A stretch of DNA of 64,000 nt from an uncultured Sunxiuqinia sp. Lineage in GTDB: Bacteria > Bacteroidota > Bacteroidia > Bacteroidales > Prolixibacteraceae. The notes under the pieces are model-generated. The model was not told the DNA's origin, made no database searches, and worked only from the letters and a program-made list of their open reading frames with translations. Positions within the stretch are counted from its first letter, which is position 1, and the number at the start of each line of letters is the position of its first letter. The DNA lies in NCBI RefSeq assembly GCF_963678245.1, contig NZ_OY782767.1:682001-746000 (forward strand). Reading direction: 5' to 3'. Positions 36,141 through 50,879 of this stretch are shown here, in pieces. Position numbers and translations under genes: made by a program.

Positions 36141-36171
36141 AATATATCAGCTTTTGGATTGAAAAATTGCG

Positions 36172-36179
36172 CAAAACTA
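36172..36179 (-). promoter_or_regulatory. -7 promoter box for guaB
   Basis: On the minus strand TAGTTTTG matches TAnnTTTG; no clear -33 TTTG. Confidence 0.5.
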
Positions 36180-36253
36180 CAATATTTTTAGAAAGTTTTG
36201 GTGGTTTTGGTTTAAAAAGAATGAATATTTATATTCACATCTGACCGGAAGTG

Positions 36254-36289
36254 CAAGAAGCTACTTTCCTTATAGGAAGCAGCTTCTTG
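36254..36289. terminator. Hairpin after gnd, probable end of the minus-strand hexuronate arm
   Basis: CAAGAAGCTACTTTCC (36254-36269) pairs with GGAAGCAGCTTCTTG (36275-36289) with one mismatch. There is no good T-run on the minus strand, so termination could be partial or factor-dependent. It lies 45 bases past the gnd stop. Confidence 0.5.
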
Positions 36290-36333
36290 AGTATAAATTA
36301 TAGAATTGATCTATTGCTCTATTTTGAGCATGC

Positions 36334-37788
36334 CTAAACGTCATAAGTTGATGATGCGGTATCACCCCCGCGACCAGTCCAGTTGGTGTGGAAAAATTCG
36401 CCACGTGGTTTGTCTAAACGTTCGTAGGTGTGTGCTCCAAAGTAATCACGCTGAGCTTGCAGTAAGTTTGCAGGCAAGCGTTCGCTGCGTATTCCATCAA
36501 AATAGCACAATGCTGAAGTTAATGATGGTACCGGAACTCCGTGAGAAAGTGCTGTTGCACAAACTCGTCTCCAACCAGCCTGAGCTTTTTCAACTTTATC
36601 TTTAAAGTAAGGATCAAGTAGCAAATTGGCTAGGTTTGGATTGTTGTCGAATGCAGATTTGATATCAGCTAAGAAAACCGAACGAATGATACAACCGCCA
36701 CGCCACATCAGGGCAATGCCGCCGTAGTTCAGGTTCCAGTTATGTTCCTTGGCTGCTTCCATCATGAGGTTGTACCCCTGAGCATATGAAATGATTTTTG
36801 CACCAAATAAGGCATCTTTCAAGTCATTAATCATTTGAACTTTGTCGCCATCAAACTTTGTCTTTGGGCCTTCAATTACTTTTGAGGCTTCAACACGCAA
36901 ATCCTTTTGCGCTGATAAACAACGTGCAAATACTGATTCGCCAATCAGGGTCAATGGAATACCGAGATCTAGTGCTGCTACGCCAGTCCATTTTCCGGTA
37001 CCTTTTTGTCCGGCGGTGTCCAGGATTTTTTCAACCAGCGGTTCGCCATCTTCATCTTTAAAACCGAGGATATCGCGAGTAATCTCAATTAGGTAAGAGT
37101 CCAATACATCGTTATTCCATTCTTTGAAAACCTCGTGCATTTCATCGGCATCCATGCCAAGTAGTTCTTTCATCATTTGGTAGGCTTCGCAAATAATTTG
37201 CATATCGCCGTACTCAATGCCGTTGTGAACCATCTTTACAAAATGCCCGGCGCCATCTTCACCAACCCAGTCGCAACAAGGCTCGTTGTCTTCCACTTTG
37301 GCTGCCACGGCCTGAAAAATTTCTTTCACGTGTGGCCACGCTGCGGGCGATCCGCCCGGCATCATTGATGGCCCTTTTAAAGCACCTTCTTCGCCACCCG
37401 AAACACCAGTTCCAATGTAAAGCAGACCTTTGCTTTCTACATACTTCGTTCTTCTAATCGTGTCGGGGAAGTGAGAGTTACCGCCATCGATAATAATATC
37501 GCCTTTTTCCAGATGAGGAATCAGTAATTCAATGAAGTCATCAACCGGTTTCCCCGCTTTTACAAGCATCATTACTTTTCGGGGTTTTTCTAAAGAAGCT
37601 ACTAAATCTTCGATAGAGTGAGCTCCAATGAAATTCTTTCCGGCACCTCGTCCGTTTACAAATTTGTCTACTTTTTCAACTGTGCGGTTGTATACCGCAA
37701 CCGTGTAGCCTTTACTTTCCATGTTTAAAACCAGGTTTTCGCCCATTACAGCTAACCCAATTAAACCGATGTCTGCTAATTTTGCCAT
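36334..37788 (-). CDS. gnd: 6-phosphogluconate dehydrogenase (decarboxylating)
   Basis: 6-phosphogluconate plus NAD(P)+ to ribulose-5-phosphate plus CO2. 484 residues, the long dimeric form. N-terminal Rossmann GLIGLAVMGENL (7-18), the VYNRT motif after strand 2, DGGNSHFPDT, the SGGEEGALKGPSMMPGG substrate loop, catalytic FVKMVHNGIEYGDMQ, and DTAGQKGTGKWT; the C-terminal TNWTGRGGDTASSTYDV is also typical. It starts 42 bp after pdxB on the same strand, at the end of a run that begins with lacI. This links it by position to the hexuronate genes; see findings. Confidence 0.95.
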   Translation of the reverse strand: MAKLADIGLIGLAVMGENLVLNMESKGYTVAVYNRTVEKVDKFVNGRGAGKNFIGAHSIEDLVASLEKPRKVMMLVKAGKPVDDFIELLIPHLEKGDIIIDGGNSHFPDTIRRTKYVESKGLLYIGTGVSGGEEGALKGPSMMPGGSPAAWPHVKEIFQAVAAKVEDNEPCCDWVGEDGAGHFVKMVHNGIEYGDMQIICEAYQMMKELLGMDADEMHEVFKEWNNDVLDSYLIEITRDILGFKDEDGEPLVEKILDTAGQKGTGKWTGVAALDLGIPLTLIGESVFARCLSAQKDLRVEASKVIEGPKTKFDGDKVQMINDLKDALFGAKIISYAQGYNLMMEAAKEHNWNLNYGGIALMWRGGCIIRSVFLADIKSAFDNNPNLANLLLDPYFKDKVEKAQAGWRRVCATALSHGVPVPSLTSALCYFDGIRSERLPANLLQAQRDYFGAHTYERLDKPRGEFFHTNWTGRGGDTASSTYDV

Positions 37789-37830
37789 TTTTTTATAATT
37801 TATTTTCTTTTCTGTTAGTTATATTGAATG

Positions 37831-38958
37831 TCAAATTGAAATATTGAATCCAAGTTGTTTCAGTTTTTCAAGTGTTACGTCATCTATATTTTTAGGTTTA
37901 ATTGTAAAAATGGGATATTCTCTTCGTACAGGATAATCGCCGCGTAGCTTCTCAAACTGTTCTGGACTATTCCTCAAACGTTGGTCATCGCTCCTGATAT
38001 CGTAAGTGAAAAGAATTGCTTCACCAATGATTGCTTCCTCTGTACGATTTAAACCATCCAGATTGATTATTGTTTGCTCTGGTAGATCGACTCCCTGTGG
38101 TTGCCAACCGTCAATACCAAGGTTGAAAAATTGACTGATTGCCTGAATGCTCATCATTGTTCCATTGGCTTTCCCATCCTTTGAGTACCCTGCTATGTGG
38201 GGTGTTGCCAGATCAACCAGCTGTAACAGGTTACGGTCGATGTCGGGTTCGCGTTCCCAGCAATCCAACACCATTCCTGAAATTTGTCCTCGCTCAATAG
38301 CTGATTCGCCGGCAAATGTGTCGACTACCTCACCCCGGCACGTGTTAAAAATGATCGGGCAATGTTCTAACGAGTTAAAAAAAAGCGAGTTTGCCATATG
38401 GAAAGTTGCATCTTCTCCATGCATGGTCAATGGTACATGGAAGGTGATAATGTCTGAATTTGAGATTATCTCCTGAAAGTTGACGAACTGATCCGATCCT
38501 TCTGCACGTTTCCTGGGAGGGTCGTTTAGCAGAACTTTCATGCCTAGTAGCTCGCATATTTTGGCCACTTTAGATCCAACCTGACCAACACCGACAATGC
38601 CGATGGTTTTATCTTTTAGCTGAAAGCCTTTTTTCTCAGCCAGAACAAATAAGGCAGAGGCAATGTATTGTTCTACAGACTTGCTGTTGCAACCAGGGGC
38701 ATTCGTCCATTCTATTCCGGCTTGTTTGCAGAAATCAGAGTCAATGTGATCAAAGCCAATGGTTGCAGTAGCAATAAAGCTGACGGTTGAATTCTTTAAT
38801 AATGCTTCATTGCAAATTGTGCGAGTTCGCGTAATCAGGGCATCAGCATTTTTTACAATTTCAGGAGTCGTTTTTGCTCCCGGTAGATAAACCACTTCTC
38901 CAAAAGGTTCTAATGCTCCTTTTATGTATGGTATTTTATCGTCTATTATAAATTTCAT
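37831..38958 (-). CDS. pdxB: 4-phosphoerythronate dehydrogenase
   Basis: Second step of pyridoxal phosphate synthesis: 4-phospho-D-erythronate to 2-oxo-3-hydroxy-4-phosphobutanoate. I start at the ATG at 38958 (MKFIIDDKIPYIKGAL), which overlaps the upstream stop as ATGA; this gives 375 residues. Motifs: TATIGFDHIDSDFC, NAPGCNSKSVEQYI, Rossmann GVGQVGSKVA, catalytic NTCRGEVVD and TPHIAGYSKDGKANGT. The GYSxDGK extension and a C-terminal dimerisation domain (about 285-375) set it apart from SerA. It is translationally coupled to the Gfo/Idh gene. Confidence 0.9.
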   Translation of the reverse strand: MKFIIDDKIPYIKGALEPFGEVVYLPGAKTTPEIVKNADALITRTRTICNEALLKNSTVSFIATATIGFDHIDSDFCKQAGIEWTNAPGCNSKSVEQYIASALFVLAEKKGFQLKDKTIGIVGVGQVGSKVAKICELLGMKVLLNDPPRKRAEGSDQFVNFQEIISNSDIITFHVPLTMHGEDATFHMANSLFFNSLEHCPIIFNTCRGEVVDTFAGESAIERGQISGMVLDCWEREPDIDRNLLQLVDLATPHIAGYSKDGKANGTMMSIQAISQFFNLGIDGWQPQGVDLPEQTIINLDGLNRTEEAIIGEAILFTYDIRSDDQRLRNSPEQFEKLRGDYPVRREYPIFTIKPKNIDDVTLEKLKQLGFNISI

Positions 38959-39950
38959 TTTCGATAATAATCTTTTACAATTTCTTCCATTACCCAACTG
39001 GTTCGTGCTGCTGATTTTCCAGTGCTCGGACATTTTCCAATACCTCTCAATTCATCAATTACCAGTTGAATATGATTTCCTCCAGCATGTTCTGGTTGGT
39101 CAAAATCGTAAAATAGCTCTCCCTGTTCTGTTATTAATTTGAGTCTAGTAGGGTTGAAACAGGCAAAACTGAGCTTTCCTTTTGTTCCCAGAATTTCAAT
39201 GGTATCTTCTTCGGATGAAGAATCAACAACGAAACTCCAGCTTCCCGTTCCCAAAACTCCACATTCAAATTCAAATGAAGCAGTAACGGTATCTTCTGCC
39301 GGATAATATCCAGCTCTGTTTTGGGCTTGCCCGCTTGCTTTCGCTATTGGGCCGAAAATAAAATCCAGAAAATCCAGTTCGTGTGAGCCCATGTCATAAA
39401 ACAAACCGGCACCTGCAATTTCTGGTTTTATGCGCCAAGGGAGCTTCTCCTTACTTAAGTTTTGTTCTTTTGAAGAGGCAAAAAAACGGATATTTACAGC
39501 TAATGTTTTGCCAAGAATATCATGATCCAGAAGCTCTTTCACTTTCAGAAATAATGGTAATGCACGCCGATAGTAGGCTACAAAAATAGGCATTCCTGTT
39601 TCTTCTGAAACTTGGATCATTCTCTCACACTCTGCATAGGTTTTTGCCATCGGCTTTTCAATATAAACCGGTTTGTCTGCTCGCATGGCCTTTATGGCAT
39701 ATTCAGCATGCATATTGGGTGGAGTTGCCACATATACGGCATTTACCTCAGTATCGTTTATCAGCTGGTCAGCATCGTCGTACCAGCGCGATACCTGATG
39801 ACGTTTGGCATAATCTTCAGCCAGTTTGCCATTTCTGCGCATCACAGCAACCAAACTTGAGTGTTCTAATTTGTAGAGTGGGGGACCATTCTTTTTTTCA
39901 GTGACATCGCCACATCCAATAATTCCCCATTTGATTTTATCTAGCTTCAT
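38955..39950 (-). CDS. Gfo/Idh/MocA family oxidoreductase
   Basis: 331 residues. An N-terminal NAD(P)-binding Rossmann domain (WGIIGCGDVTEKKNGP at 8-23), the conserved EKPMAKT motif near residue 98 whose Lys is catalytic in the family, and a C-terminal alpha/beta domain with the GAGLFYDMGSHELDFLDF block carrying the expected His. The substrate is probably a sugar, polyol or sugar acid, but cannot be named. It overlaps pdxB by 4 bases and follows the LarA-like gene after 33 bp, so it belongs to the minus-strand hexuronate arm by position. Confidence 0.85.
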   Translation of the reverse strand: MKLDKIKWGIIGCGDVTEKKNGPPLYKLEHSSLVAVMRRNGKLAEDYAKRHQVSRWYDDADQLINDTEVNAVYVATPPNMHAEYAIKAMRADKPVYIEKPMAKTYAECERMIQVSEETGMPIFVAYYRRALPLFLKVKELLDHDILGKTLAVNIRFFASSKEQNLSKEKLPWRIKPEIAGAGLFYDMGSHELDFLDFIFGPIAKASGQAQNRAGYYPAEDTVTASFEFECGVLGTGSWSFVVDSSSEEDTIEILGTKGKLSFACFNPTRLKLITEQGELFYDFDQPEHAGGNHIQLVIDELRGIGKCPSTGKSAARTSWVMEEIVKDYYRK

Positions 39951-39983
39951 TTAGTACAACGAGAGTTTCCGGTAACTGATAAA

Positions 39984-41273
39984 TTAATACTTAAAGCGAT
40001 CTTTAAATGCCCAGAGCCCGATTGCTGGATTTGAGATGTAGAATACTTCCTCCCCATTTGGCAAAGTATTGTATCCATCTTTCAAGACTTCCGGATTGTA
40101 TCGGGCAGTGATTTCATCGTAATCGCCATATTTGAATCCAACACTTTCTATTTCTTCGCGGCTTAAATTACCGGTTTTTTTGCCCGGACAGTAAGTAATA
40201 CTGAAACGCCCTTCGGAAGAACCATGAATTAGGTGAGCAGCAGCACTTAAATTGTTTCGAAGCTCTTCATTTTCATCACACGATTTAAGAGTTGCCGGAG
40301 TTCCAAAGTAGCCATATTTGCGAATTAACCGGTCAATCTCTTTATCTTCTCCAAACTCTTTTAGAGCCGGAGCTAATACGATTAATTCACCATCATCATC
40401 AATAGCCATTCGAGTACGATAAACCGATTTGTTTCCCAACCAGGTTGATTTGAATTCAGTGGGATCGAGCCAAACGACTACTTTTCTCAATGGTTTATCC
40501 AGCATTTCAAAATTCACTTGCAATGAAAGCTTGGCAGCTTTGTCAAATACTTCGTAATCGTCGCCAATAAATAAACCACGGGTTTTTACTTTTCCGTCCG
40601 TTTTATCTAATCCAACCACCGTTTGAACATACAAAATAGGTAGGTTCTGTGTGAAATTATCAGAAGCATAATTGAAAATACGTCGTACTGGCGTGTCTGC
40701 ATGTCCCATCATTCGTTCCATTCCATAGGCAGCACCTACAAAGTGGCTCTTGTTGATTCCTTCAACACCTCCGGTTCCGACAAATACATTTTTGTTGTAA
40801 TTAGCCATGCCCACAACTTCGTGGGGGACAACCTGCCCGATTGATAAAATCAGGTCGAAGTTTCCCTCCAACAAAAGTTTATTAACCTGAGCTGGCCAAG
40901 GAAAATCGACAGCACCTTCTGAGACTTCTTTTACAAACTCGGCGGGTACTTCGCCAACAGTTACGACATCATTTCTCCAATCGTGCTCGCGAATCAATGA
41001 TTTTGGTAAGCTGCCAAACATATGGCTAATTTGTCCATCAGTCATAGGAGAGTGGGTTCCCAATGCCGGAAGAACATCGGTTAACTTATCTCCGTAAAAC
41101 TTCCACGTCAGTTCGGTTAATTCTCCCGACCGACTCGGTAATCTGGTGTAATCTGGCGGAATAGCCAACACTTTGTTGACTCCTTGTATTTGTTCCAACG
41201 CATGATAAAGTCCCTTTTTGAGGTCTTCATTTGTTAGTTCATGTTCAGGTGAACCTATCTCGTAATATAGCAT
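39984..41273 (-). CDS. LarA-type nickel-pincer hydroxyacid racemase/epimerase, possibly D-mannonate/D-gluconate 2-epimerase
   Basis: 429 residues of the LarA (DUF2088) family, enzymes that use a nickel-pincer nucleotide to invert the alpha-carbon of 2-hydroxyacids. Visible: D41-Y-T-R44 in place of the usual DxTR, His74 in LGTHSPMT, His151 in VVPHEVVG, Lys161 in NYNKN and His177 in KSHF. The His151-Lys161-His177 spacing (10 and 16) equals that of H174-K184-H200 in lactate racemase LarA, so the catalytic and cofactor-binding residues appear intact. The family includes gluconate 2-epimerase. Placement after the mannonate oxidoreductase and a sugar kinase suggests a C6 aldonate substrate (inference). 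LarB, LarC and LarE, needed to make the cofactor, are not in the window. Confidence 0.82.
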   Translation of the reverse strand: MLYYEIGSPEHELTNEDLKKGLYHALEQIQGVNKVLAIPPDYTRLPSRSGELTELTWKFYGDKLTDVLPALGTHSPMTDGQISHMFGSLPKSLIREHDWRNDVVTVGEVPAEFVKEVSEGAVDFPWPAQVNKLLLEGNFDLILSIGQVVPHEVVGMANYNKNVFVGTGGVEGINKSHFVGAAYGMERMMGHADTPVRRIFNYASDNFTQNLPILYVQTVVGLDKTDGKVKTRGLFIGDDYEVFDKAAKLSLQVNFEMLDKPLRKVVVWLDPTEFKSTWLGNKSVYRTRMAIDDDGELIVLAPALKEFGEDKEIDRLIRKYGYFGTPATLKSCDENEELRNNLSAAAHLIHGSSEGRFSITYCPGKKTGNLSREEIESVGFKYGDYDEITARYNPEVLKDGYNTLPNGEEVFYISNPAIGLWAFKDRFKY

Positions 41274-41296
41274 TGTAATTCAGTTTTGAGTTCGAA

Positions 41297-41311
41297 GTTT
41301 CAAATTCCAAG
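41297..41311. repeat. Short GTTTCAAATTCCAAG element in an operon gap
   Basis: It lies in the 74-bp gap between the LarA-like gene and the PfkB kinase gene and resembles the TTTCAAA block at 15413-15450. Possibly the same kind of dispersed short repeat. Confidence 0.3.
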
Positions 41312-41347
41312 TTGAGACATAATCTACCACTTGGAACCTTTGTATAA

Positions 41348-42430
41348 TCATCGTTTCACCCGTGCATTTCCTTCCCAGATGCTCCAAACCATATCTTCAT
41401 CGGCTGGTTGAGCGTAATCGGTAAGGAATGTGGTTGCCATGGCTCCTGTTGCCCAGCCAAACTGTGGCCATTTTTCAGGATTCCAATCTTTTAAAATTCC
41501 GTAAAGCAGTCCACCAACAAATCCGTCACCACCTCCAATACGATCTAAAACATTAATAGTGCGAGGCATTATTACCTGCCAGTTGTCGTCTCCTTCCAAC
41601 ATGATGGCTCCCCAAAGGTGCTCGTTCACGCTAACAACTTCACGCAAGGTAGTGGCAAAAACTGAGGCATTGGGAAATGCCTTCTTAACTCGCCCAATCA
41701 TTCCTTTGAATCCCTCAATTTCTTCCTCAATGCCTTTACCTCCGGCTTCAGGTCCTTCTATTCCTAAGCATAGTTGGAAATCTTCTTCATTACCAATCAG
41801 TATATCTGAAACAGAAGCTATCTCTGTAAAGTTTTCGCGTAATTCTTTGTCACGACCTTTCCAAAATGATGCTCTGTAGTTCAAGTCAAATGAAATACGG
41901 GTTCCATATTTTTTTGCTGCACGTGCTATTTCCAAGCAGAATGTACTGGTTTCTGGCGACAGGGCTGCAATCAAACCGGATAGATGTACGATTTGCACAC
42001 CTTCTTGCCCAAAAATACGCTCCAAGTCAAAGTCCTTTACATTCAATGTTCTTCCAACTTCTCCGGCACGATCATTTTGTACACGGGGTCCGCGAGATCC
42101 ATATCCGCTGTCAGCAATATTAAACTGATGTCGGTATCCCCAAGGATCTCCCTGTTCAACTTCGGGTCCTTCGTAGTCCATGTGTCGACTTTTCAGGTTG
42201 CTTTTTATGAATTTTGCAACCGGGCTTCCTTTCACAAAAGTTGTAAGCACTTTTACCGGAAGTCCGAGAAAAGAGGCAATACTTGCCACATTTGTTTCGG
42301 CACTGGTTGCCTGCATTTTAAACATATCGCTACTATGTACCGGCTGTCCGTTAACAGGAGTAATGCGCACCCCCATACTTGTAGGCACAATCAGCGAATA
42401 TTTGCAGTCTTTTTTTAATTTTAAGCTCAT
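41348..42430 (-). CDS. PfkB family sugar/sugar-acid kinase
   Basis: 360 residues counting from the ATG at 42430 (MSLKLKKDCKYSLIVPTSMG); an in-frame start at 42487 would add 19 residues that look untranslated. It is a ribokinase-fold kinase: VHLSGLIAALS, FDLNYRASFWKGR, the anion-hole/catalytic-base motif RIGGGDGFVGGLLYG near residue 320 and a C-terminal ATP-site helix. It differs from kdgK at 47490-48527 (low identity by eye, no shared N-terminus), so the locus has two PfkB kinases. The substrate may be KDG, gluconate or another sugar acid; the position between the mannonate oxidoreductase and the LarA-like epimerase makes gluconate worth testing. Confidence 0.82.
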   Translation of the reverse strand: MSLKLKKDCKYSLIVPTSMGVRITPVNGQPVHSSDMFKMQATSAETNVASIASFLGLPVKVLTTFVKGSPVAKFIKSNLKSRHMDYEGPEVEQGDPWGYRHQFNIADSGYGSRGPRVQNDRAGEVGRTLNVKDFDLERIFGQEGVQIVHLSGLIAALSPETSTFCLEIARAAKKYGTRISFDLNYRASFWKGRDKELRENFTEIASVSDILIGNEEDFQLCLGIEGPEAGGKGIEEEIEGFKGMIGRVKKAFPNASVFATTLREVVSVNEHLWGAIMLEGDDNWQVIMPRTINVLDRIGGGDGFVGGLLYGILKDWNPEKWPQFGWATGAMATTFLTDYAQPADEDMVWSIWEGNARVKR

Positions 42431-42549
42431 CTCTATTTTGACTTTAAATTTTGAATAATTGATTTGACAGATTGTTTGACATTCCAATACACGCCCTCTA
42501 CCGGGTGTGTACCTGAAATGACAGTGACTTGTTACGGAAAGCGATAAAA

Positions 42550-43401
42550 TTATACGCCACCAAAGGCGTTGTAACCTCCATCGACCGGAATTGTAATACC
42601 CGTAATGAAACCTGAAATGTCTGAGATCAGAAATAAGGTAGCACCTTGTAAGTCTTGCGGATCTCCAAATTTTCCCATCGGCGTGTTGTTTACAATCTTT
42701 TGACCACGAGGCGAAAAGTTTCCGGTTTTTTCATCCATCACTAAAAAGCGGTTTTGGCTGGTAATGAAAAAGCCTGGAGCAACACCGTTTACCCGAATAC
42801 CTATTTTTGCAAAGTGAACGGCCAGCCATTCGGTGAAATTATTAATTGAGGCTTTTGCAGCCGAATAAGCGGGGATTTTGGTCAATGGCTTGTAAGCATT
42901 CATTGAAGAGACATTCAGAATAACTCCTTTTTTATTTTTTAACATGTCTTTTGTGAAAACCATCGATGGCAATATCGTACCCTTAAAGTTTAAGTCGAAT
43001 ACTTTGTCAAAACCGTTCAAGTCTAACCCATAAAAGGTGTCTTCCAGTTTGTCCATATTTTCCTCAGTCATTTCTTCCACTTTGGTTGTGGCTCCTGGAT
43101 TATTTCCTCCTGCACAGTTAATCAAGATGTCGATAGGACCAAGCTTTTCACGAATTATCTCATTGGCCTTTTCAAGCGACGCTTTATCCAGGACATTGGC
43201 CTCTACACCAATAATTTTTGTATCGAATTCAGCAGCGAGTTTTGCTGCGGCTTTTTCGGCAGAGGCGGGACTGCTCCCACCAACTGCTATTTTTACACCA
43301 ACCGAAGCCATTGCTTTTACCATTTCGCTGCCAATAACTCCCGATCCACCGGTTATTACACACACTTTACCCTTGAGGTCTTTAAAACTAATTGGTTCCA
43401 T
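42550..43401 (-). CDS. uxuB: SDR-type D-mannonate oxidoreductase (fructuronate reductase)
   Basis: 283-residue short-chain dehydrogenase. Cofactor motif TGGSGVIG (17-24), NCAGGNNPG, the catalytic Ser in NVSSMNAY and Tyr/Lys in YSAAKAS, GVAPGFF and a C-terminal VDGGYNAFGGV. It resembles the SDR fructuronate reductases (B. subtilis YjmF/UxuB type) in the long insertion after NAAG (MEKLED-like, about 105-130) and the QNRFL segment. It would reduce D-fructuronate to D-mannonate. It overlaps the lacI 3' end by 14 bp, so the two are transcribed together. Gluconate 5-dehydrogenase-like activity is the main alternative. Confidence 0.82.
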   Translation of the reverse strand: MEPISFKDLKGKVCVITGGSGVIGSEMVKAMASVGVKIAVGGSSPASAEKAAAKLAAEFDTKIIGVEANVLDKASLEKANEIIREKLGPIDILINCAGGNNPGATTKVEEMTEENMDKLEDTFYGLDLNGFDKVFDLNFKGTILPSMVFTKDMLKNKKGVILNVSSMNAYKPLTKIPAYSAAKASINNFTEWLAVHFAKIGIRVNGVAPGFFITSQNRFLVMDEKTGNFSPRGQKIVNNTPMGKFGDPQDLQGATLFLISDISGFITGITIPVDGGYNAFGGV

Positions 43402-44467
43402 AATTATTTGTATTAAATTCTTGGTAGAAATCCAGGTTTTCTTTAGTTAAAATATCAATCGAAGTGTAATTTTCCAGAGAAACTTCTTTCTTCAGAATAA
43501 TATATTGAAATAGGGTGTTTATGGCTTGATAGCCCTGTTCTTCGGGGCGCTGGCAAATTAGGAAATCTACCAGATTTTTTCGGACACTTTCTTTGTTGCC
43601 CGGAATAAGATCGTGACCTACAAGCCTGATGTTTTTGATTTTTCTTTTTTCGAGGTATTCCGCTACTTTATATACCTGAGAATTGGTTACAAAGATGCCT
43701 TGGATATTCTGGTCTTTTTTTAGTTCCTTTTCAATTTGAGCAAAGTAGGTTTTTGAAGAGGTGTCGTTGATTTCAATGGTAATAATTTTTTTGCTTGTAC
43801 CTCCATTTTGTTTGAAATAGTTGTAAAAACCTTTTTCGCGTTGAACCAAATGGTTTTGATTGTCCATTTCGGTTGCAAAGTGTATAATTAGTATTGTCGA
43901 AGCAGCTGGTACCGAAAAGTCAAGAAGCTTTGCAGCTAGTGTCCCACTTTGGAATGAATTCTGGCCGATATAACTTAGTTTTTTACTTTCCTTAATATTT
44001 GAGTCAATAAAAACGAAAGGAATCTTTTTTGATTCAAGTTCTTTTATAAATGCCTTGGCTTCCCTTGAGAAAAAAGGAGCTAAAACAACGCCGTCATGAT
44101 CGTTTTTTATAAGTTCGTTGGCTTTGCCTACGAAGGAGTTGGCATCATCTTGAGCAAATTTATAAATCTTGATCGCAATTCCGTATTGTTGAATTTCGTC
44201 GTACGCACGTCGCATTCCATTTAAAGGTTTGTTCCAGTATGCTTCGTCTGCGGATGAATCTGGAATAAGAACAGCTAGCGAGTGTGTTCTTTTTGAAGCT
44301 AGAGCACTTGCCAAAATATTCGGGTGGTAGTCGAGTTCTTCAATGATTTTCATGATTTTCTCTTTCGTAGCTTTCGACACTTCGCCACGCTTATGAAGAA
44401 CACGGTCTACGGTTCCAATCGAAACATTTGCTTTTTCGGCAATGTCTTTTATTCTTATTCTTTTTAT
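43388..44467 (-). CDS. LacI family transcriptional regulator, start codon not canonical
   Basis: The DNA-binding domain is intact: reading upstream of the GTG at 44380 in frame gives RIRIKDIAEKANVSIG then TVDRVLHKRGEVSKATKEK, a normal LacI helix-turn-helix and hinge (YHPNILASALASKRT). About 330 residues of periplasmic-binding-like ligand domain follow. The frame is open to 44508 but contains no ATG, GTG or TTG before the HTH. The codon where a start is expected is ATA (44465-44467). An out-of-frame ATG at 44479-44481 would join the HTH frame if one base were added near 44468. Either an unusual start, a sequence error or a real frameshift. It heads the minus-strand arm and probably controls both arms through the operators at 44537 and 44627. 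Confidence 0.8.
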   Translation of the reverse strand: MKRIRIKDIAEKANVSIGTVDRVLHKRGEVSKATKEKIMKIIEELDYHPNILASALASKRTHSLAVLIPDSSADEAYWNKPLNGMRRAYDEIQQYGIAIKIYKFAQDDANSFVGKANELIKNDHDGVVLAPFFSREAKAFIKELESKKIPFVFIDSNIKESKKLSYIGQNSFQSGTLAAKLLDFSVPAASTILIIHFATEMDNQNHLVQREKGFYNYFKQNGGTSKKIITIEINDTSSKTYFAQIEKELKKDQNIQGIFVTNSQVYKVAEYLEKRKIKNIRLVGHDLIPGNKESVRKNLVDFLICQRPEEQGYQAINTLFQYIILKKEVSLENYTSIDILTKENLDFYQEFNTNNYGTN

Positions 44468-44510
44468 TGGTTTGATGACATTTTGTATTAAGTTATTGAA
44501 CTCCTTAAAA

Positions 44511-44518
44511 CAAAACTA
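44511..44518 (-). promoter_or_regulatory. -7 promoter box for lacI and the minus-strand arm
   Basis: On the minus strand TAGTTTTG is a full TAnnTTTG match. The operator at 44537-44550 lies 18 bases upstream of it, on the -33 region, so the regulator would block its own promoter. Confidence 0.6.
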
Positions 44519-44536
44519 TGCAATTTTTTTAAATTT

Positions 44537-44550
44537 CGTGTGCGAACACG
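44537..44550. promoter_or_regulatory. LacI-type operator 1
   Basis: CGTGTGCGAACACG: an imperfect palindrome with 5-bp arms CGTGT/ACACG and the central CG typical of LacI-family sites. Twenty bases around it (44532-44551) are repeated identically at 44622-44641, centre-to-centre 90 bp. Confidence 0.8.
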
Positions 44551-44626
44551 GAAAAAACTATTGTATAACATTTTTTGGCTGAATTTTGTTTTTTTGTATG
44601 GCCCAGAAGAATAAAAATTCTAATTT

Positions 44627-44640
44627 CGTGTGCGAACACG
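44627..44640. promoter_or_regulatory. LacI-type operator 2
   Basis: Identical to operator 1 including flanks. It overlaps a TAATTTCG sequence (44621-44628), a one-mismatch -7 box for the uxaE transcript, so binding would repress the plus-strand arm; two sites 90 bp apart could allow looping. Confidence 0.8.
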
Positions 44641-44701
44641 GGGTAAAAACATGTTTGTCATGTCTTGGAGAGATTGATTGATAATTAAATAAATATATAC
44701 C

Positions 44702-45949
44702 ATGGAATTAAGTAAGTACAGTTTTGGAGTGGGTGATCGTTTTTCTCACCAAGGAGAAGCTCAGTTAAGAGCAATTGTTAAGGCTAATCAAGCTGGTGTT
44801 AATGTCAGTCCAGTATGGAATAAATCCAATCGGGAGCACAGCAATGTGAAGACCAAGCCGGACGATGTGCGAACCGAAGCTGATGCGGCGGTGAAAGCAT
44901 TAGGGTATGGATTACCTTATTATGTAGATGCTGACCATATTAACTTAACCACTGTGGCTCCGTTTGTGAAAGGTGCTGACTTTTTTACTCTTGATGTGGC
45001 CGGTTATATTGGCAACGAAAGCTCAAAAGAGTCAGTTGATGCTTTTTTGTCTTCTTGTGAAAAGTATAAAGGAGCTCTGAAGATTCCGGGTATCAAAGAT
45101 GACATTCAGGTAGATGATAGTTTGCTGGCAAAAGTTGTTGAGAACTTTTTAGCCGCAACCGAAGAAGCTGCAGCTATTTATAAATACTTAGTTGAAAAGA
45201 AAGGACAGGGAAATTTCATTGCTGAGGTGTCTATGGATGAAGTTGAAAATCCACAAACTCCGGTTGAGTTATTCTTTATTCTGAAAATGTTGGCTGATAA
45301 AGGTGTGCCTGTTCAAACAATTGCGCCGAAATTTACCGGTCGCTTCAACAAAGGAGTCGACTATGTTGGTGATTTAGATCAGTTTGCCAAGGAGTTTGAA
45401 GAGGACTTAATGGTGATTGCATATGCAGTTAAGGAATTCGGACTTCCTTCAGACCTTAAGTTGAGTGTGCACTCAGGTAGCGATAAGTTTTCAATTTATC
45501 CGATTATGGCCGACATTATCAAGAAGCATGATAAAGGCCTACACATAAAAACAGCAGGAACAACTTGGTTAGAAGAAGTTATTGGGTTAGCCCTGTCTGG
45601 AGGAGAGGCATTGGAGGCTGCAAAAGAAGTTTATGCGACAGCACTTGGACGTAAAGAGGAATTGTGCGCGCCCTACGCTGATGTGATTGATATTAAAGAC
45701 AATGAGTTGCCAACGGTTGAAGAAGTAAATGGTTGGGATAGCGAAAAATTTGCCAATACGTTACGCCATATTCCCGGACATGCCGATTACAATCCTAATT
45801 TCCGTCAGTTGATTCATGTCGGATATAAAGTGGCAGCAGAAATGGGAGAGCGTTACTACACTTTATTGGAAAATAATGCGGAGGTAATTGGAAACTGCGT
45901 AGAAGAAAATATTTTTGATCGTCATTTAAAACGATTATTCAATTTGTAA
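44702..45949 (+). CDS. uxaE: Tagaturonate epimerase (UxaE family)
   Basis: 415-residue cytoplasmic protein, start MELSKYSFGVGDRFSHQGEA, a family-typical opening. UxaE, defined in Thermotoga maritima, interconverts D-tagaturonate and D-fructuronate, so galacturonate can enter the glucuronate branch without altronate enzymes. The call rests on family resemblance (GDRFSHQGEAQL, DADHINLTT, KFTGRFNKGVDYVGD, LSVHSGSDKFSIYP) and on its place directly before uxaC. It carries several conserved His/Asp/Lys candidates for metal and substrate binding, but I cannot map them. First gene of the plus-strand arm, under operator 2. Confidence 0.82.
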   Translation: MELSKYSFGVGDRFSHQGEAQLRAIVKANQAGVNVSPVWNKSNREHSNVKTKPDDVRTEADAAVKALGYGLPYYVDADHINLTTVAPFVKGADFFTLDVAGYIGNESSKESVDAFLSSCEKYKGALKIPGIKDDIQVDDSLLAKVVENFLAATEEAAAIYKYLVEKKGQGNFIAEVSMDEVENPQTPVELFFILKMLADKGVPVQTIAPKFTGRFNKGVDYVGDLDQFAKEFEEDLMVIAYAVKEFGLPSDLKLSVHSGSDKFSIYPIMADIIKKHDKGLHIKTAGTTWLEEVIGLALSGGEALEAAKEVYATALGRKEELCAPYADVIDIKDNELPTVEEVNGWDSEKFANTLRHIPGHADYNPNFRQLIHVGYKVAAEMGERYYTLLENNAEVIGNCVEENIFDRHLKRLFNL

Positions 45950-45979
45950 ATTCATAGAAAAATAAAAAACCGAGTATTG

Positions 45980-47380
45980 ATGAAGAAGTTTATGGATGAG
46001 AACTTTCTGTTGCAAACAGAAACTGCTCAGAAACTGTATCACGAACATGCGGCTAAAATGCCGATTTTTGACTATCACTGTCACATTTCGCCCAAAGAAA
46101 TAGCCGAAGATAAAACATTTGATAACATAACTCAGATCTGGTTGTATGGCGATCATTATAAGTGGCGCGCTATGCGAACGAATGGTGTTGACGAACGCTA
46201 TTGTACCGGAGATGCCAGCGACTGGGAGAAATTTGAAAAATGGGCAGAGACGGTGCCTCACACCTTGAGAAATCCACTGTACCACTGGACTCATTTAGAG
46301 TTGAAGAAGTTTTTTGGAATAGACAAGGTTCTTAGTCCAGACACCGCTAAGGAGATTTGGGATGAGTGTAATGCCAAATTAACATCTGGTAGTTACTCCT
46401 GCCGCGATATTATTCGTATGGCGAATGTCGACACAATTTGCACAACTGATGATCCTGTTGATAACCTAGAGCATCACCGCGCAATTAAAGAAAGTGGTTT
46501 TGAAGTAAAAGTATTACCAGCTTGGCGTCCTGATAAAGCGATGATGGTTGAAGATAAAGATTTCTTCAACGATTACGTTGATCAGTTAGCTGAAGCTGCA
46601 AATGTAGAGATTGATAGTTTCGATGCTTTTATGGTTGCCTTGGATAAGCGTCATCAATTTTTTCATGATAATGGTTGTCGATTGTCTGACCATGGCTTGG
46701 ATACCGCTTTTGCAGAAGATTATTCAGAGGATGAGATTAATGCAATTTTTGACAAAATTCGTTCTCTGAAAAACCTGTCTGCGATTGAAATCCTGAAATT
46801 TAAATCGTGCATGTTATACGAATTTGGAATCATGGATAATTCGCGCGGATGGACGCAGCAATTCCATATTGGAGCACAACGAAATAATAATACACGCTTG
46901 TTTAACAAGCTAGGGCCAGATACAGGATTCGACTCGATAGGAGATGTTCCGGTAGCTGCTCCGCTAGCGAAATTATTGAATCGTTTAGATTTGGAAGATA
47001 AATTAAGCAAAACTATTCTATACAATCTGAATCCTCGCGATAATGAACTGTATGCGACAATGATTGGAAATTTCCAGGATGGATCGGTTCCCGGAAAAAT
47101 GCAATATGGTTCAGGGTGGTGGTTTTTGGATCAGAAAGATGGTATGAAAAAGCAAATGAATGCGCTTTCGAACCTTGGACTATTGAGCCGCTTCGTTGGA
47201 ATGTTAACAGATTCACGCAGCTTTTTATCGTATACACGTCACGAATATTTCCGCAGAACACTATGTAATCTGCTTGGGAATGATGTTGAGAATGGTGAAA
47301 TTCCAGCAAATATGGAGCTATTGGGTGAGATGGTTGAGAATATTTGTTACAACAATGCAAAAAGCTATTTTAATTTTTAA
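45980..47380 (+). CDS. uxaC: Glucuronate/galacturonate isomerase UxaC
   Basis: Interconverts D-glucuronate with D-fructuronate and D-galacturonate with D-tagaturonate. 466 residues from the ATG at 45980 (a TTG directly before it at 45977 is less likely). Amidohydrolase-like HCH in IFDYHCHISPKEI near residue 30, IWLYGDHYKWRAMRTNGV, TTDDPVDNLEHH, the GSGWWFLDQKDGM loop and the LTDSRSFLSYTRHEYFRR ending. Length and motifs are typical. It starts 30 bp after uxaE and is surely co-transcribed. Confidence 0.95.
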   Translation: MKKFMDENFLLQTETAQKLYHEHAAKMPIFDYHCHISPKEIAEDKTFDNITQIWLYGDHYKWRAMRTNGVDERYCTGDASDWEKFEKWAETVPHTLRNPLYHWTHLELKKFFGIDKVLSPDTAKEIWDECNAKLTSGSYSCRDIIRMANVDTICTTDDPVDNLEHHRAIKESGFEVKVLPAWRPDKAMMVEDKDFFNDYVDQLAEAANVEIDSFDAFMVALDKRHQFFHDNGCRLSDHGLDTAFAEDYSEDEINAIFDKIRSLKNLSAIEILKFKSCMLYEFGIMDNSRGWTQQFHIGAQRNNNTRLFNKLGPDTGFDSIGDVPVAAPLAKLLNRLDLEDKLSKTILYNLNPRDNELYATMIGNFQDGSVPGKMQYGSGWWFLDQKDGMKKQMNALSNLGLLSRFVGMLTDSRSFLSYTRHEYFRRTLCNLLGNDVENGEIPANMELLGEMVENICYNNAKSYFNF

Positions 47381-47445
47381 TGAAATTCACACATTTCGGA
47401 ACAAGAAAGATACTATTTGTATTGATTCTTTTCGAAATGTCTTTT

Positions 47446-47453
47446 ATTTTTGC
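47446..47453 (+). promoter_or_regulatory. Internal promoter -7 box for kdgK-eda-transporter
   Basis: TATTTTTG matches TAnnTTTG; TTG at 47423-47425 lies 20 bases upstream as a -33 candidate. The last two bases overlap the operator palindrome. Confidence 0.6.
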
Positions 47454-47465
47454 AATCGATTGCAC
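47452..47465. promoter_or_regulatory. Perfect 14-bp palindromic operator at the kdgK promoter
   Basis: TGCAATCGATTGCA is its own reverse complement, contains the LacI/GalR core AAnCGnTT, and overlaps the -7 box, an ideal repressor position. It differs from the CGTGTGCGAACACG sites, so a second regulator from outside the window is likely. Confidence 0.7.
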
Positions 47466-47489
47466 AAAGAAATTAAAGTTAATTAAAAG

Positions 47490-48527
47490 ATGAATAAAAA
47501 AGTTGTAACGTTTGGAGAGATCATGTTGCGCTTAGCAACTCCAGGGTATTTAAGGTTTAATCAGGCTGATAGTCTGAACGCCACTTTTGGTGGTGGAGAA
47601 GCTAATGTAGCCGTTTCGTTGGCTAACTACGGTATTCCTGTTGATTTTGTAACTCGTCTTCCTAAAAATGACATAGCCCGCGCCTGTAAAATGGATTTGA
47701 GAGGATATGGAGTAGGAGTAGACAAGATTATTGAAGGTGGAGACCGTGTAGGTATTTACTTCCTTGAAACTGGTGCGGTAAGCCGCGGTAGTAAAGTCGT
47801 TTATGACCGTGCCCATTCTGCGATTTCTGAAATTAAGCCAGGAATGATTGATTGGGATGAAGTATTTGAAGGAGCAGGCTGGTTTCACTGGACTGGTATC
47901 ACTCCAGCAATCTCACAAGGCGCTGCCGATGTTTGTTTGGAAGCTATTCAGAAAGCAAATGAAAAAGGGATCACGGTATCATGTGATTTGAACTACCGCA
48001 AAAACTTGTGGAAATATGGTAAATCATGTGGCGAAGTAATGCCAGCATTGGTTGCCGGAACCGATGTGATTTTAGGTAACGAAGAAGATGCTGCTATGGC
48101 TTTGGATATCCATCCTGAAGGAGTAGATGTAACAGGTGGTCATGTTGAAGGAGCTGCTTATGAATCAGTTTCGAAACAAATTATGGCTAAATTCCCTCGC
48201 TGTAAAAAGGTAATTACAACTTTGCGTGGTTCAATCAATGCAAATCACAACAGCTGGGCTGGTGTACTTTGGGATGGCAAGAAGCTATTCGAATCTCGTC
48301 AGTACCAGATTACTCACATTGTTGACCGTGTTGGTGGTGGTGATTCTTTTATGGGTGGTTTAATTTACGGATTATTGACTTATCCGGACGATGATCAGAA
48401 TGCACTGGAATTTGCAGTAGCTGCTTCTTGTTTGAAGCACACGATCTATGGCGATTACAACCAGGCTACACTGGAAGAAGTAGAGAAATTAATGGGTGGC
48501 GATGCGTCAGGACGTGTTGCTCGTTAA
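47490..48527 (+). CDS. kdgK: 2-dehydro-3-deoxygluconokinase
   Basis: Phosphorylates KDG to KDPG. 345-residue PfkB-family kinase: VVTFGEIMLRL at the start, FGGGEANVAVSLANYG substrate lid, CDLNYRKNLW, TTLRGS, and the catalytic VDRVGGGDSFMGGLIYG near residue 280. These match the Bacteroidota KdgK type well. It lies 109 bp after uxaC with its own promoter and operator in the gap, and 88 bp before eda. Confidence 0.92.
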   Translation: MNKKVVTFGEIMLRLATPGYLRFNQADSLNATFGGGEANVAVSLANYGIPVDFVTRLPKNDIARACKMDLRGYGVGVDKIIEGGDRVGIYFLETGAVSRGSKVVYDRAHSAISEIKPGMIDWDEVFEGAGWFHWTGITPAISQGAADVCLEAIQKANEKGITVSCDLNYRKNLWKYGKSCGEVMPALVAGTDVILGNEEDAAMALDIHPEGVDVTGGHVEGAAYESVSKQIMAKFPRCKKVITTLRGSINANHNSWAGVLWDGKKLFESRQYQITHIVDRVGGGDSFMGGLIYGLLTYPDDDQNALEFAVAASCLKHTIYGDYNQATLEEVEKLMGGDASGRVAR

Positions 48528-48554
48528 GTTATAAAATAGTTGATAATGAATGAT

Positions 48555-48615: not shown

Positions 48616-49284
48616 ATGGCTAGATTTTCGAGAATACAAGTAGCGCAAGTGATGAAAGAAACTGGTATTGTCCCAGTATTTTATCACGCTGATGTTGAAT
48701 TGTGTAAACAAGTTATTAAAGCTTGTTACGATGGTGGAATTCGGGTGTTCGAATTTACGAACCGTGGTGATTTTGCTGCTGAGGTTTTTGGTGAATTAAC
48801 AAAATGGTCGGCTAAAGAATGCCCTGAAATGATCATGGGAGTTGGTTCAATTATCGATGAGGCAACTACTGCATTGTATATTTCTATTGGTGCAAACTTT
48901 ATTGTTTCTCCGTTGATTGACGAAGGAATGGCAAAAGTTTGTAACAAACGTAAAATTGCCTGGAGCCCAGGTTGTGGATCAGTAACTGAAATTGGCCGTG
49001 CGCACGAGCTCGGTTGCGAAGTCGTAAAAATATTCCCTGGTTCTTCGGTTGGCGGACCTGAGTTTGTTAAAGGTGTGATGGGGCCAATGCCATATGCAAG
49101 CATTATGCCTACTGGAGGGGTTTCTCCGGATGAAGAAAACCTGACTAGCTGGTTTAAAGCTGGTGTGCATTGTGTAGGAATGGGGTCACAGTTATTTCCT
49201 AAAGATGTGTTAGCAAAAAAAGATTTTTCCTATATTTCGACGAAATGTAAAGAGGCTATTAGTATCGTGGGAAAATTACGCTAA
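48616..49284 (+). CDS. eda: KDPG aldolase (2-dehydro-3-deoxy-phosphogluconate aldolase)
   Basis: Splits KDPG to pyruvate and glyceraldehyde-3-phosphate. 222 residues, the class I aldolase size. VFEFTNRGD carries the general-base Glu near residue 47, IVSPLIDEGMAKVCN is the phosphate-side loop, and VVKIFPGSSVGGPEFVK contains the Schiff-base Lys near residue 137; MPTGGVSPDEEN follows as usual. Third step of the plus arm, directly after kdgK and 44 bp before the transporter. Confidence 0.94.
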   Translation: MARFSRIQVAQVMKETGIVPVFYHADVELCKQVIKACYDGGIRVFEFTNRGDFAAEVFGELTKWSAKECPEMIMGVGSIIDEATTALYISIGANFIVSPLIDEGMAKVCNKRKIAWSPGCGSVTEIGRAHELGCEVVKIFPGSSVGGPEFVKGVMGPMPYASIMPTGGVSPDEENLTSWFKAGVHCVGMGSQLFPKDVLAKKDFSYISTKCKEAISIVGKLR

Positions 49285-49328: not shown

Positions 49329-50879
49329 ATGTCGTTAAATCAAGTTACAGAGAAAGTGTCCAAATACCGGTGGACAATTGTGGCTATGTTGTTTATGGCA
49401 ACTACTGTAAACTACTTAGACCGCCAGGTACTATCGTTAACCTGGAAAGATTTTATTGCTCCGGAGTTCCACTGGACAGATAATGATTATGGAACGATCA
49501 CTGCATGGTTCTCTGCATTCTATGCTATTGGCCTTTTGTTTGCTGGTCGATTTGTCGATTGGTTAGATACCAAAAAAGGATATATGTGGGCCATCGGCAT
49601 TTGGTCGGTTGGAGCTGTTTTACACGCATTTTGTGGAATTGCTACCTCCGGAATAGTTTCTGGCCATTGGTTGGTAGGCTTTGGAGAAGCACGTGAACAC
49701 ATTGAACAATTTATTAATACAACTGGTGATATTGCCAGAGTATTAAATGTGAGTGTTGTACTCTTTATTTTTGCTCGTTTAGTATTGGCAATCGGAGAGG
49801 CAGGTAACTTCCCAGCTGCGATTAAAACAACTGCTGAATATTTCCCCAAAAAAGACCGCGCTTATGCGACATCTATTTTTAACGCTGGAGCAACAGTCGG
49901 TGCGTTAGCTGCGCCTGTTACTATTCCATTATTGGCGAAACATTTTGGATGGGAAGCTGCTTTTATTGTGATTGGTGGTCTCGGTTTTATATGGATGGGA
50001 TGGTGGCAGTTTGGTTATGCTAAGCCGGATAAGCATCCTAAAGTGAATAAAGCTGAGTTGGAATATATTAACTTAGATGATGATGATCCGGATGCAGGAA
50101 AAACGGATGAAGAGATTGCTGCTAAAGGTAAGAAGATGAGCATGATTAAACTGTTGAAATACAGACAAACATGGGCTTTCGCTTTTGGTAAATTTATGAC
50201 TGATGGTGTGTGGTGGTTCTATTTGTTTTGGACTCCGGCATACTTGAGCTCGGTATATGGAATGGAAACTTCTGATACGGCAGCACAATTAGCTCTGTTT
50301 GTTCTATATGCAATTACACTATTTTCAATTATTGGTGGTTGGTTACCCACTTACTTTGTTGAAAACAAAGGAATGCATCCTTACGCAGGCCGAATGAAAG
50401 CAATGTTGATTTTTGCCTTTTTCCCATTGTTAGCTGTATTTGCGCAACCGTTGGGACACTTAACATACTGGTTTCCGGTTATTATTATTGGTATAGCAGG
50501 TGCTGCACACCAAGCGTGGTCTGCAAATATCTTTACCACCGTGAGTGATATGTTTCCTAAAGCTGCAGTAGCAACAGTTACTGGTATTGGTGGGTTAGCT
50601 GGTGGCTTAGGATCAGTATTAATTAATAAAGGTTCGGGGTTATTATTCGACTTCTCGAGAGGATCAACTATGGTGCTTGATCTGGAAGTACCAATGACCA
50701 GAGATTTATTTGAGAGTGGTTCTCAATTTGTCAGAGAACCGATGAACTTCCTCGGATATGTGGGGATTGAAGCTGGTTATTTTATTATTTTCGGAATATG
50801 TGCTATTGCTTACCTCATTGGCTGGGTCGTAATGAAATCTTTGGTACCAAAATACAAACCTATTACGAATTTGGATTAG
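49329..50879 (+). CDS. MFS hexuronate transporter (ExuT-like, anion:cation symporter family)
   Basis: 516-residue, 12-helix major-facilitator protein. The start VNYLDRQVLSLTW after helix 1 and the SIFNAGATVGALAAPVTIPLLA segment are hallmarks of the ACS family that includes E. coli ExuT and Bacteroidota hexuronate importers. Two unusual hydrophilic insertions are visible: a 35-residue stretch near 100-140 (GEAREHIEQFINTTGDI) and a Pro/Asp/Lys-rich central loop near 235-270 (LDDDDPDAGKTDEEIAAKG). Last gene of the plus arm; import of glucuronate/galacturonate is inferred from the operon. A terminator follows at 50941. Confidence 0.88.
   Translation: MSLNQVTEKVSKYRWTIVAMLFMATTVNYLDRQVLSLTWKDFIAPEFHWTDNDYGTITAWFSAFYAIGLLFAGRFVDWLDTKKGYMWAIGIWSVGAVLHAFCGIATSGIVSGHWLVGFGEAREHIEQFINTTGDIARVLNVSVVLFIFARLVLAIGEAGNFPAAIKTTAEYFPKKDRAYATSIFNAGATVGALAAPVTIPLLAKHFGWEAAFIVIGGLGFIWMGWWQFGYAKPDKHPKVNKAELEYINLDDDDPDAGKTDEEIAAKGKKMSMIKLLKYRQTWAFAFGKFMTDGVWWFYLFWTPAYLSSVYGMETSDTAAQLALFVLYAITLFSIIGGWLPTYFVENKGMHPYAGRMKAMLIFAFFPLLAVFAQPLGHLTYWFPVIIIGIAGAAHQAWSANIFTTVSDMFPKAAVATVTGIGGLAGGLGSVLINKGSGLLFDFSRGSTMVLDLEVPMTRDLFESGSQFVREPMNFLGYVGIEAGYFIIFGICAIAYLIGWVVMKSLVPKYKPITNLD

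Follow-up and report, generated by a model that had tools for sequence, protein, structure and literature searches.

A predicted nickel-pincer epimerase branch from hexuronates to the pentose phosphate pathway at a LacI-linked locus of an uncultured Sunxiuqinia and other Bacteroidota

Uronic acids are a large source of carbon, supplied by the polymers of plants and algae, and the Bacteroidota rank as major degraders; in textbook models, saturated hexuronates pass through UxuA or UxaA to pyruvate. We analyzed 64,000 nucleotides of DNA from an uncultured Sunxiuqinia sp. (assembly GCF_963678245.1, contig NZ_OY782767.1, positions 682,001 to 746,000 of the forward strand; this whole stretch is called the window here), which carry a gene for a LarA-like protein within a run of seven minus-strand genes (window positions 36,334 to 44,467). 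An original prediction had read this run, lacI, a short-chain dehydrogenase/reductase (SDR) gene, a PfkB kinase gene, larA-like, Gfo/Idh, pdxB, and gnd, as a route from hexuronates to the pentose phosphate pathway without mannonate dehydratase. All seven genes were found, with a largest gap of 119 bp and two overlaps, and profile matches bore out the family calls. Left out of that prediction was a divergent plus-strand operon (44702 to 50879), uxaE-uxaC-kdgK-kdgA followed by a gene for a transporter of the major facilitator superfamily (MFS). The genes, and two palindromes in the spacer between run and operon, are as follows, with KDG standing for 2-keto-3-deoxygluconate and KDPG for 2-keto-3-deoxy-6-phosphogluconate.

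36334..37788, minus strand: gnd, NADP-type decarboxylating 6-phosphogluconate dehydrogenase (TIGR00873, 765 bits against a cut-off of 427)
37831..38958, minus strand: pdxB-like D-2-hydroxyacid dehydrogenase (4-phosphoerythronate dehydrogenase) (NF001309, 440 bits against a cut-off of 434; PF11890)
38955..39950, minus strand: Gfo/Idh/MocA oxidoreductase, variable among relatives (PF01408/PF22725)
39984..41273, minus strand: LarA homolog, group 18, predicted nickel-pincer hexonate C2-epimerase (mannonate/gluconate) (NF052594, 658 bits against a cut-off of 500; 4NAR; residues given below)
41348..42430, minus strand: PfkB-family kinase, distinct from KDG kinase, predicted gluconate or mannonate 6-kinase (PF00294; motif comparison with KdgK)
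42550..43401, minus strand: SDR, predicted fructuronate reductase/D-mannonate oxidoreductase (NF006132, 361 bits against a cut-off of 281)
43388..44476, minus strand: LacI-family regulator, start codon uncertain (candidate ATC at 44474-44476) (PF00356, PF13407)
44537..44550, no strand: palindromic operator-like site CGTGTTCGCACACG, exact copy in the lacI/uxaE spacer
44627..44640, no strand: second exact copy of CGTGTTCGCACACG in the lacI/uxaE spacer, 90 bp from the first
44702..45949, plus strand: uxaE, tagaturonate/fructuronate epimerase (PF16257, E 7e-60)
45977..47380, plus strand: uxaC, uronate isomerase (NF002794, 672 bits against a cut-off of 387)
47490..48527, plus strand: kdgK, KDG kinase of PfkB type, separate from the PfkB gene beside larA (PF00294; motifs; best NCBIfam match, NF041633, an aldolase/sugar kinase fusion, below cut-off)
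48616..49284, plus strand: kdgA/eda, KDPG aldolase (NF005499, 374 bits against a cut-off of 275; PF01081)
49329..50879, plus strand: MFS transporter, possibly a hexuronate permease (PF07690; position)

Within the run, the lacI and SDR genes overlap by 14 bp and the Gfo/Idh and pdxB genes by 4 bp; the gaps are 119 bp (SDR to PfkB), 74 bp (PfkB to larA), 33 bp (larA to Gfo/Idh), and 42 bp (pdxB to gnd). Run and divergent operon are one uronate locus, which brings together the UxaC/UxaE, fructuronate reductase, C2-epimerase, hexonate kinase, and Gnd families, with predicted specificities for the SDR, the epimerase, and the kinase.

The LarA homolog falls under NF052594, the NCBIfam model for a "nickel-dependent putative hexonate epimerase" (model name NPN_18), a name that corresponds to LarA group 18 of Desguin et al. 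2020 (PMC7583248). According to the consulted parts of that paper, members of groups 19 and 20 were assayed as D-mannonate/D-gluconate epimerases, and group 18 was only hypothesized to act on a hexonate. The catalytic residues D72, H108, H174, and K298 (LarA numbering) correspond to D41, H74, H151, and K282 in the window protein, and R75, K184, and H200, which bind the nickel-pincer nucleotide (NPN), to R44, K161, and H177, as placed by motif and by alignment with 4NAR. This entry was the sole PDB match of the protein at E values up to 1 (E 9.8e-37) and is Thermotoga maritima GntE2, an enzyme assayed on D-mannonate (PMC7583248). The residues E, V, A, and H are described as usual at four substrate positions of gluconate 2-epimerases (PMC11770544, from 2024, the consulted main text of which does not use the term "group 18"); at these positions, F175, F176, W358, and T359 of LarA, the window protein has E152, V153, A346, and H347, with the A,H pair placed via the 4NAR alignment and not via the LarA structure.

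We compared the protein with two sets of relatives. The named set consists of the best 80 of 486 relatives, the four nearest of which are from Sunxiuqinia; the window protein is 92% identical to Sunxiuqinia proteins. The distant set derives from the group-18 model, which matched 45 of 392 sampled Bacteroidota genomes, 23 of them above its cut-off; these 23 are the window's genome and the 22 distant genomes. The GntE signature and the catalytic and NPN-binding residues are found in all 80 named and all 22 distant group-18 proteins and in a second group-18 LarA of the window's genome. Eleven LarA proteins of Bacteroidota that are more divergent retain the catalytic residues and the E of the first position, whereas V at the second occurs in six, A at the third in two, and H at the fourth in none; identity between group-18 LarA and the remaining LarA proteins, from 11 Bacteroidota stretches, was 26 to 30%. 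The cofactor genes larB, larC, and larE, for which a search elsewhere in the genome had been suggested, lie together as larE-larC-larB on contig C4, all above cut-offs, and by their presence the host is predicted to make the NPN cofactor. We predict that the window LarA is a mannonate/gluconate C2-epimerase.

Two observations concern other genes of this system. A gene for a membrane protein with a DsbD_2 domain (L087:3410-4108) follows larB, and its product may transport the metal of the nickel cofactor. The second group-18 LarA of the window's genome (contig C7; L001/L088:8981-10261) has all GntE residues and a long branch; we rejected it as a backup enzyme in a uronate operon, as L088 held no other match to a reference gene and the one neighbor tested was a methyltransferase.

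The PfkB protein beside LarA has the motifs ETNVAS, PRVQNDRA, and GGGDGF, whereas the KdgK of the same window has EANVAV, KVVYDRA, and GGGDSF, residues that presumably contact KDG. We rejected the former as a KDG kinase, since its motifs differ and a separate KdgK-type gene is present in the divergent operon. Two PfkB subfamilies occupy the kinase slot in relatives, and both depart from KdgK in the same blocks; the window type is 79 to 84% identical in five distant genomes, and for the other subfamily the best PfkB hits are 30 to 39% identical. A P-loop gluconokinase (GntK) was found above cut-off in none of the 23 genomes, with weak matches in three, and no PfkB gluconokinase model was among the NCBIfam matches of the window. 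GntK of T. maritima belongs to the FGGY family. The PfkB protein would suit a hexonate kinase, with gluconate and mannonate both compatible as substrates.

Two other gene types were seen near larA in some distant genomes. Phosphofructokinase (PFK)-family genes occur in L129, L132, L143, and L145 (PF00365 tested in L132 and L143), and the closest PDB relatives of the L132 protein are pyrophosphate-dependent phosphofructokinases. A haloacid dehalogenase (HAD)-like gene of 296 to 298 codons was tested in L132, L138, and L143; a HAD gene also occurs in L134, and the remaining members were assigned by resemblance. We provisionally set aside the PF00365 and HAD-type genes as hexonate kinases, as they may instead phosphorylate sedoheptulose phosphate in a pentose phosphate pathway that works without transaldolase.

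In the pathway that we propose, UxaC would yield fructuronate and tagaturonate, which UxaE would interconvert. Tagaturonate would pass through UxaB-UxaA, encoded on another contig with the same palindrome, to KDG and on through KdgK-KdgA. Fructuronate would be reduced to D-mannonate by the SDR, and D-mannonate would be epimerized at C2 to D-gluconate by the group-18 LarA with the nickel-pincer cofactor from LarE-LarC-LarB. The PfkB kinase would convert gluconate to 6-phosphogluconate, and Gnd would decarboxylate this to ribulose 5-phosphate, a step by which the reductant spent by the SDR would be roughly regained. We favor, with some confidence and on comparative rather than biochemical evidence, a reading in which the window contains a hexuronate regulon, linked to LacI, from which such a branch leads to the oxidative pentose phosphate pathway. 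The pathway is probably right as a whole, with the epimerase before the kinase as the most likely order. In the opposite order, a published alternative that the original prediction left aside, PfkB would make 6-phosphomannonate from mannonate and LarA would epimerize it to 6-phosphogluconate. This order seems unlikely to us, but it keeps some probability because Lactobacillus suebicus phosphorylates mannonate before epimerization, activities demonstrated in extracts of that organism (PMC6978723). The pfkB gene sits between the SDR gene and larA and its product has motifs unlike those of KdgK, which would fit this order, but the order of genes says little about the order of reactions. Moreover, the window LarA matches in its residues the GntE enzymes that use free mannonate, and the consulted passages of the literature describe no NPN-dependent enzyme with a phosphorylated acid as its substrate.

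We investigated the conservation of the run in both sets of relatives. Genes in the relatives' loci were labeled by their best BLAST match to reference proteins from the window's genome. Loci cut by contig ends were scored as misses, and many named loci stop at contig ends, so that missing genes in them are not absences. PfkB is the next labeled gene upstream of larA in 74 of the 80 named loci, and on the larA strand within 10 kb the labels include pdxB in 68 loci, gnd in 65, lacI in 59, and Gfo/Idh in 43. Given these numbers for PfkB, gnd, and pdxB, the gene run is not due to chance. The SDR is of the window type in 32 named loci and of another type in 36. Paludibacter-type loci have uxaE and the SDR within the same run and often uxuA too (17 of 80). 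Two more genes come after lacI in five loci (the second split into two open reading frames [ORFs] in one locus); in the one tested, L022, they encode mannitol-dehydrogenase-family and altronate-dehydratase-family proteins, i.e., uxaB-uxaA.

For the distant genomes, the stretch fetched was up to about 9 kb on either side of larA, shorter at contig ends, and genes on either strand were counted. The 22 stretches contain gnd in 21, an SDR in 20, UxaC or UxaE in 17, and a PfkB-family kinase in 17; the kinase gene is directly beside larA on the same strand in 13 and further off in four. Pfam confirmed the divergent UxaC/UxaE calls in 10 of 10 tested, and all five SDRs tested exceeded the D-mannonate oxidoreductase cut-off. 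The search for the same gene run in other Bacteroidota, proposed with the original prediction, thus recovered an SDR-kinase-larA-gnd neighborhood in named and distant loci alike. That the SDR, LarA, and kinase act instead on other hexonates, such as an altronate/allonate or gulonate/idonate pair, with gnd for general pentose phosphate supply, appears to us very improbable. The specificity of the SDR is deduced from its family alone, the substrate of group 18 is a prediction, and the GntE enzymes have high Michaelis constants for mannonate (17 mM in T. maritima and 120 mM in Corynebacterium glutamicum; PMC7583248), all of which would agree with another substrate; however, UxaE and UxaC supply fructuronate, and the gnd of 21 distant stretches needs 6-phosphogluconate, which is reachable from mannonate but not from altronate/allonate or gulonate/idonate.

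No UxuA match (PF03786) was found in 16 of the 22 distant genomes, which are near-complete, all 16 of which are 98 to 100% complete and two of which are single contigs, and no altronate dehydratase match (PF04295) was found in 21 of the 22. Both enzymes are unmatched in 15 of them, and 11 of these 15 have UxaC or UxaE near larA. Among 48 genomes searched from the 80 named loci, for which completeness is not listed, 35 have a UxuA match (a few as fragments only) and 13 have none; altronate dehydratase was searched for in eight of the 13 and was also without a match in four. As a hidden substitute we considered a ManD-type mannonate dehydratase and rejected it, since none of the 23 genomes exceeded the cut-off of NF011654, which we take to model ManD-type enzymes; weak matches keep this exclusion incomplete. 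Dehydratase-less genomes that keep the run are in our view the strongest evidence for the proposed route. We put at about even the probability that several Bacteroidota lineages gave up both classical uronate dehydratases, leaving group-18 LarA and an undescribed PfkB hexonate kinase as the only outlet for saturated hexuronates; in some relatives, the larA run is possibly the only uronate outlet.

The window's own genome is different in this respect. The phrase "without mannonate dehydratase" in the original prediction does not hold for it: a full-length uxuA on contig C4 adjoins a second SDR gene, the product of which also passes the D-mannonate oxidoreductase model, with an AraC-type gene divergently transcribed beside uxuA, and uxaB-uxaA lies on contig C8. 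Because these genes are also present, the larA run here is an additional branch and not a replacement. The dehydratase-free route therefore stands in part, with the families, the nickel-pincer supply, the GntE residues, the neighborhood, and the relatives without UxuA or altronate dehydratase in its favor, and with uxuA and uxaB-uxaA of this genome against it. A single match to PF00393 (6PGD C-terminal domain) in the whole genome marks gnd as single-copy, and a second gnd carrying the ordinary pathway was rejected on this ground. As gnd is the only copy while zwf-pgl lies elsewhere in the genome, away from gnd, it probably has a part in the normal oxidative pentose phosphate pathway as well.

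The palindrome CGTGTTCGCACACG has four exact sites in the genome, the two in the lacI/uxaE spacer and two just upstream of uxaB-uxaA; in this whole-genome search no copy was found at uxuA. With two mismatches allowed, a single further place appeared, apart from the same sites read in reverse, and a reversed control pattern gave similar numbers, so we place weight on exact sites only. Among the 59 named loci with a labeled lacI, CGTGTNCGNACACG is found near the lacI start in 43 and is paired 89 to 90 bp apart in 20. In 16 named-locus genomes picked to span both gene arrangements, we found 31 sites in 15 genomes, against one site in one genome for the reversed control. Nineteen of these sites are at lacI loci; the other 12 fall within 10 fetched regions, upstream of uxaB-uxaA (six), of a separated lacI and uxaE in one genome (two), and of uxaC-kdgK-kdgA (one) and in a uxaC-lacI spacer (one). 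Where uxuA lies outside the run, it has none of the 31 sites. The operons with sites would therefore feed altronate dehydratase, from tagaturonate, and the larA run, from mannonate, which suggests that one LacI regulon covers both uronate branches. We read the palindrome as a shared operator-like site at the divergent promoter, where LacI would act.

These sites bear on a more conventional explanation, that of an ordinary uronate operon in which uxuA carries the mannonate flux and larA-pfkB-gnd serves mainly gluconate use or balance, or pentose and NADPH supply. We consider it quite unlikely. The full-length uxuA with its own SDR, the uxuA within the run of Paludibacter-type loci, and the probable service of the sole gnd in the normal pathway with zwf-pgl all speak for it. 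On the other side, the palindrome marks uxaB-uxaA but not uxuA, which has the AraC-type gene divergent beside it, and 16 of the 22 distant genomes retain the run without a UxuA match. The original prediction had itself named a normal uxuA, co-regulated elsewhere and carrying all flux, as a finding that would speak against it; a uxuA does exist elsewhere, but it is without the run's palindrome.

Several points weigh against the LarA branch as we propose it. This genome can use uronates without it, having uxuA with the second SDR and uxaB-uxaA. In the consulted parts of PMC7583248 and PMC11770544, group 18 is absent from the enzymes assayed. The predicted role of the kinase is based on its position and its departure from the KdgK motifs, and five of the 22 distant stretches have no PfkB kinase. 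Four of the 15 dehydratase-less genomes (G062, G078, G124, and G224) are without UxaC or UxaE in the fetched stretch. Enzymes of the enolase superfamily matched the ManD-type model weakly, below its cut-off, in 19 of the 23 genomes, because of which these genomes may have an unusual ManD-type mannonate dehydratase. KDPG aldolase is present in several distant clusters; this fits KDG from KduI/KduD, and it could also mean flow through 6-phosphogluconate dehydratase. The counts of absent dehydratases cover genomes with group-18 LarA only. Finally, the exact palindrome is absent from 16 of the 59 named loci with lacI, and one of the 16 named-locus genomes searched has no site at all.

The ends of the run show features of their own. 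Ahead of the helix-turn-helix, the window's lacI frame contains no ATG, GTG, or TTG, and its start is therefore uncertain (about 44467 to 44476). The same holds at this place (window 44467-44500) in many Prolixibacteraceae loci, where an ATC or ATT codon, mostly followed by AAA, stands at about the same position; this suggests that translation of lacI begins at a rare start codon. An ATG, GTG, or TTG is nevertheless present in a few relatives. Downstream of gnd, we noted a stem-loop:

36254..36289, minus strand: stem-loop 3' of gnd, possible end of the transcription unit (fold of 36215-36305, -26.2 kcal/mol)

None of 200 shuffled sequences folded equally well (z -4.80). An inosine monophosphate (IMP) dehydrogenase gene lies beyond it, and because of this strong stem-loop after gnd the transcription unit may end upstream of that gene. 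The terminator scan did not report the stem-loop because no T run follows it. A promoter scan found 16 candidates, fewer than the shuffle mean of 23.5. The promoter consensus of Bacteroidota is of the -33/-7 type, and it had no match in 36000-45200.

Two further observations concern the composition of the run. The pdxB gene, a vitamin B6 gene inside a uronate operon, has a counterpart in just five of the 22 distant stretches. In relatives, small ORFs are recurrently inserted into the operon spacers. Of five tested, four were 23S_rRNA_IVP (PF05635) and one PDDEXK_3 (PF13366) (L006:9578-9943, L009:9564-9926, L024:12524-12892, L083:4618-4968, and L016:13691-14083). A motif scan of 48 unlabeled operon ORFs in 35 loci suggests that 24 are IVP-like and eight GxxExxY-like, and imperfect inverted repeats flank the spacer ORF in all five pfkB-larA spacers examined. 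The window's pfkB-larA spacer (41274-41347) has a hairpin only (z -1.62; 11 of 200 shuffles as good).

The chemistry of the route is not new in principle. It was already proposed for T. maritima, whose GntE was assayed and which has gnd, uxaE, uxaD, gntE, and gntK in one regulon, the UxaR regulon aldH-pelB-gnd-uxaRED-gntEK (Rodionova 2012, as described in PMC3750489, PMC6978723, and PMC7583248). According to the consulted parts of these descriptions, that regulon shares with the present locus the roles of UxaE, the fructuronate reductase (UxaD), the LarA-type GntE, a gluconate kinase, Gnd, and a single hexuronate regulator. It differs in having a GntR-family instead of a LacI-family regulator, LarA group 20 instead of 18, and GntK instead of PfkB; it also includes kdgAK-uxuBA (PMC3750489), whereas here uxuA is without a site and uxaB-uxaA has one. 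GntE1, GntE2, and LarAH15 (PMC7583248 and PMC11770544) share the catalytic, NPN, and E,V,A,H residues with the window LarA; they are assayed gluconate 2-epimerases, whereas the window protein, of group 18, is a predicted one. L. suebicus likewise leads uronate through mannonate to 6-phosphogluconate without mannonate dehydratase, but with phosphorylation before epimerization, with the mannonate kinase and the 6-phosphomannonate 2-epimerase known at the level of activities in extracts, and with phosphoketolase at the end (PMC6978723).

Within Bacteroidota, the LacI-type KdgR/UxaR/UxuR of Bacteroides thetaiotaomicron (PMC3878776) and UxuR2 of Algoriphagus marincola (PMC5507952) provide LacI-family control of glucuronate/galacturonate genes, as proposed here. 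The likeness is one of regulator family, and a LarA-type epimerase or gnd is not mentioned for these regulons in the consulted parts of the two papers. Nor is a LarA step in Bacteroidota described in those parts of PMC5507952, PMC3878776, and PMC7953866, and none of the literature matches listed describes this route in Bacteroidota, as judged by title and abstract opening. As far as this search shows, the Bacteroidota version, its regulon, and the genomes with neither classical dehydratase are new.

If the proposed route is true, some Bacteroidota would lead hexuronates in a roughly redox-neutral way to ribulose 5-phosphate, with loss of CO2 and with the use of a rare nickel cofactor, and metabolic models would be in error where they score these genomes as incomplete for uronate use. 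The substrate of LarA group 18 and a new kinase would become directly testable. Where the larA run is the sole outlet, growth of these organisms on uronates would be nickel-dependent.

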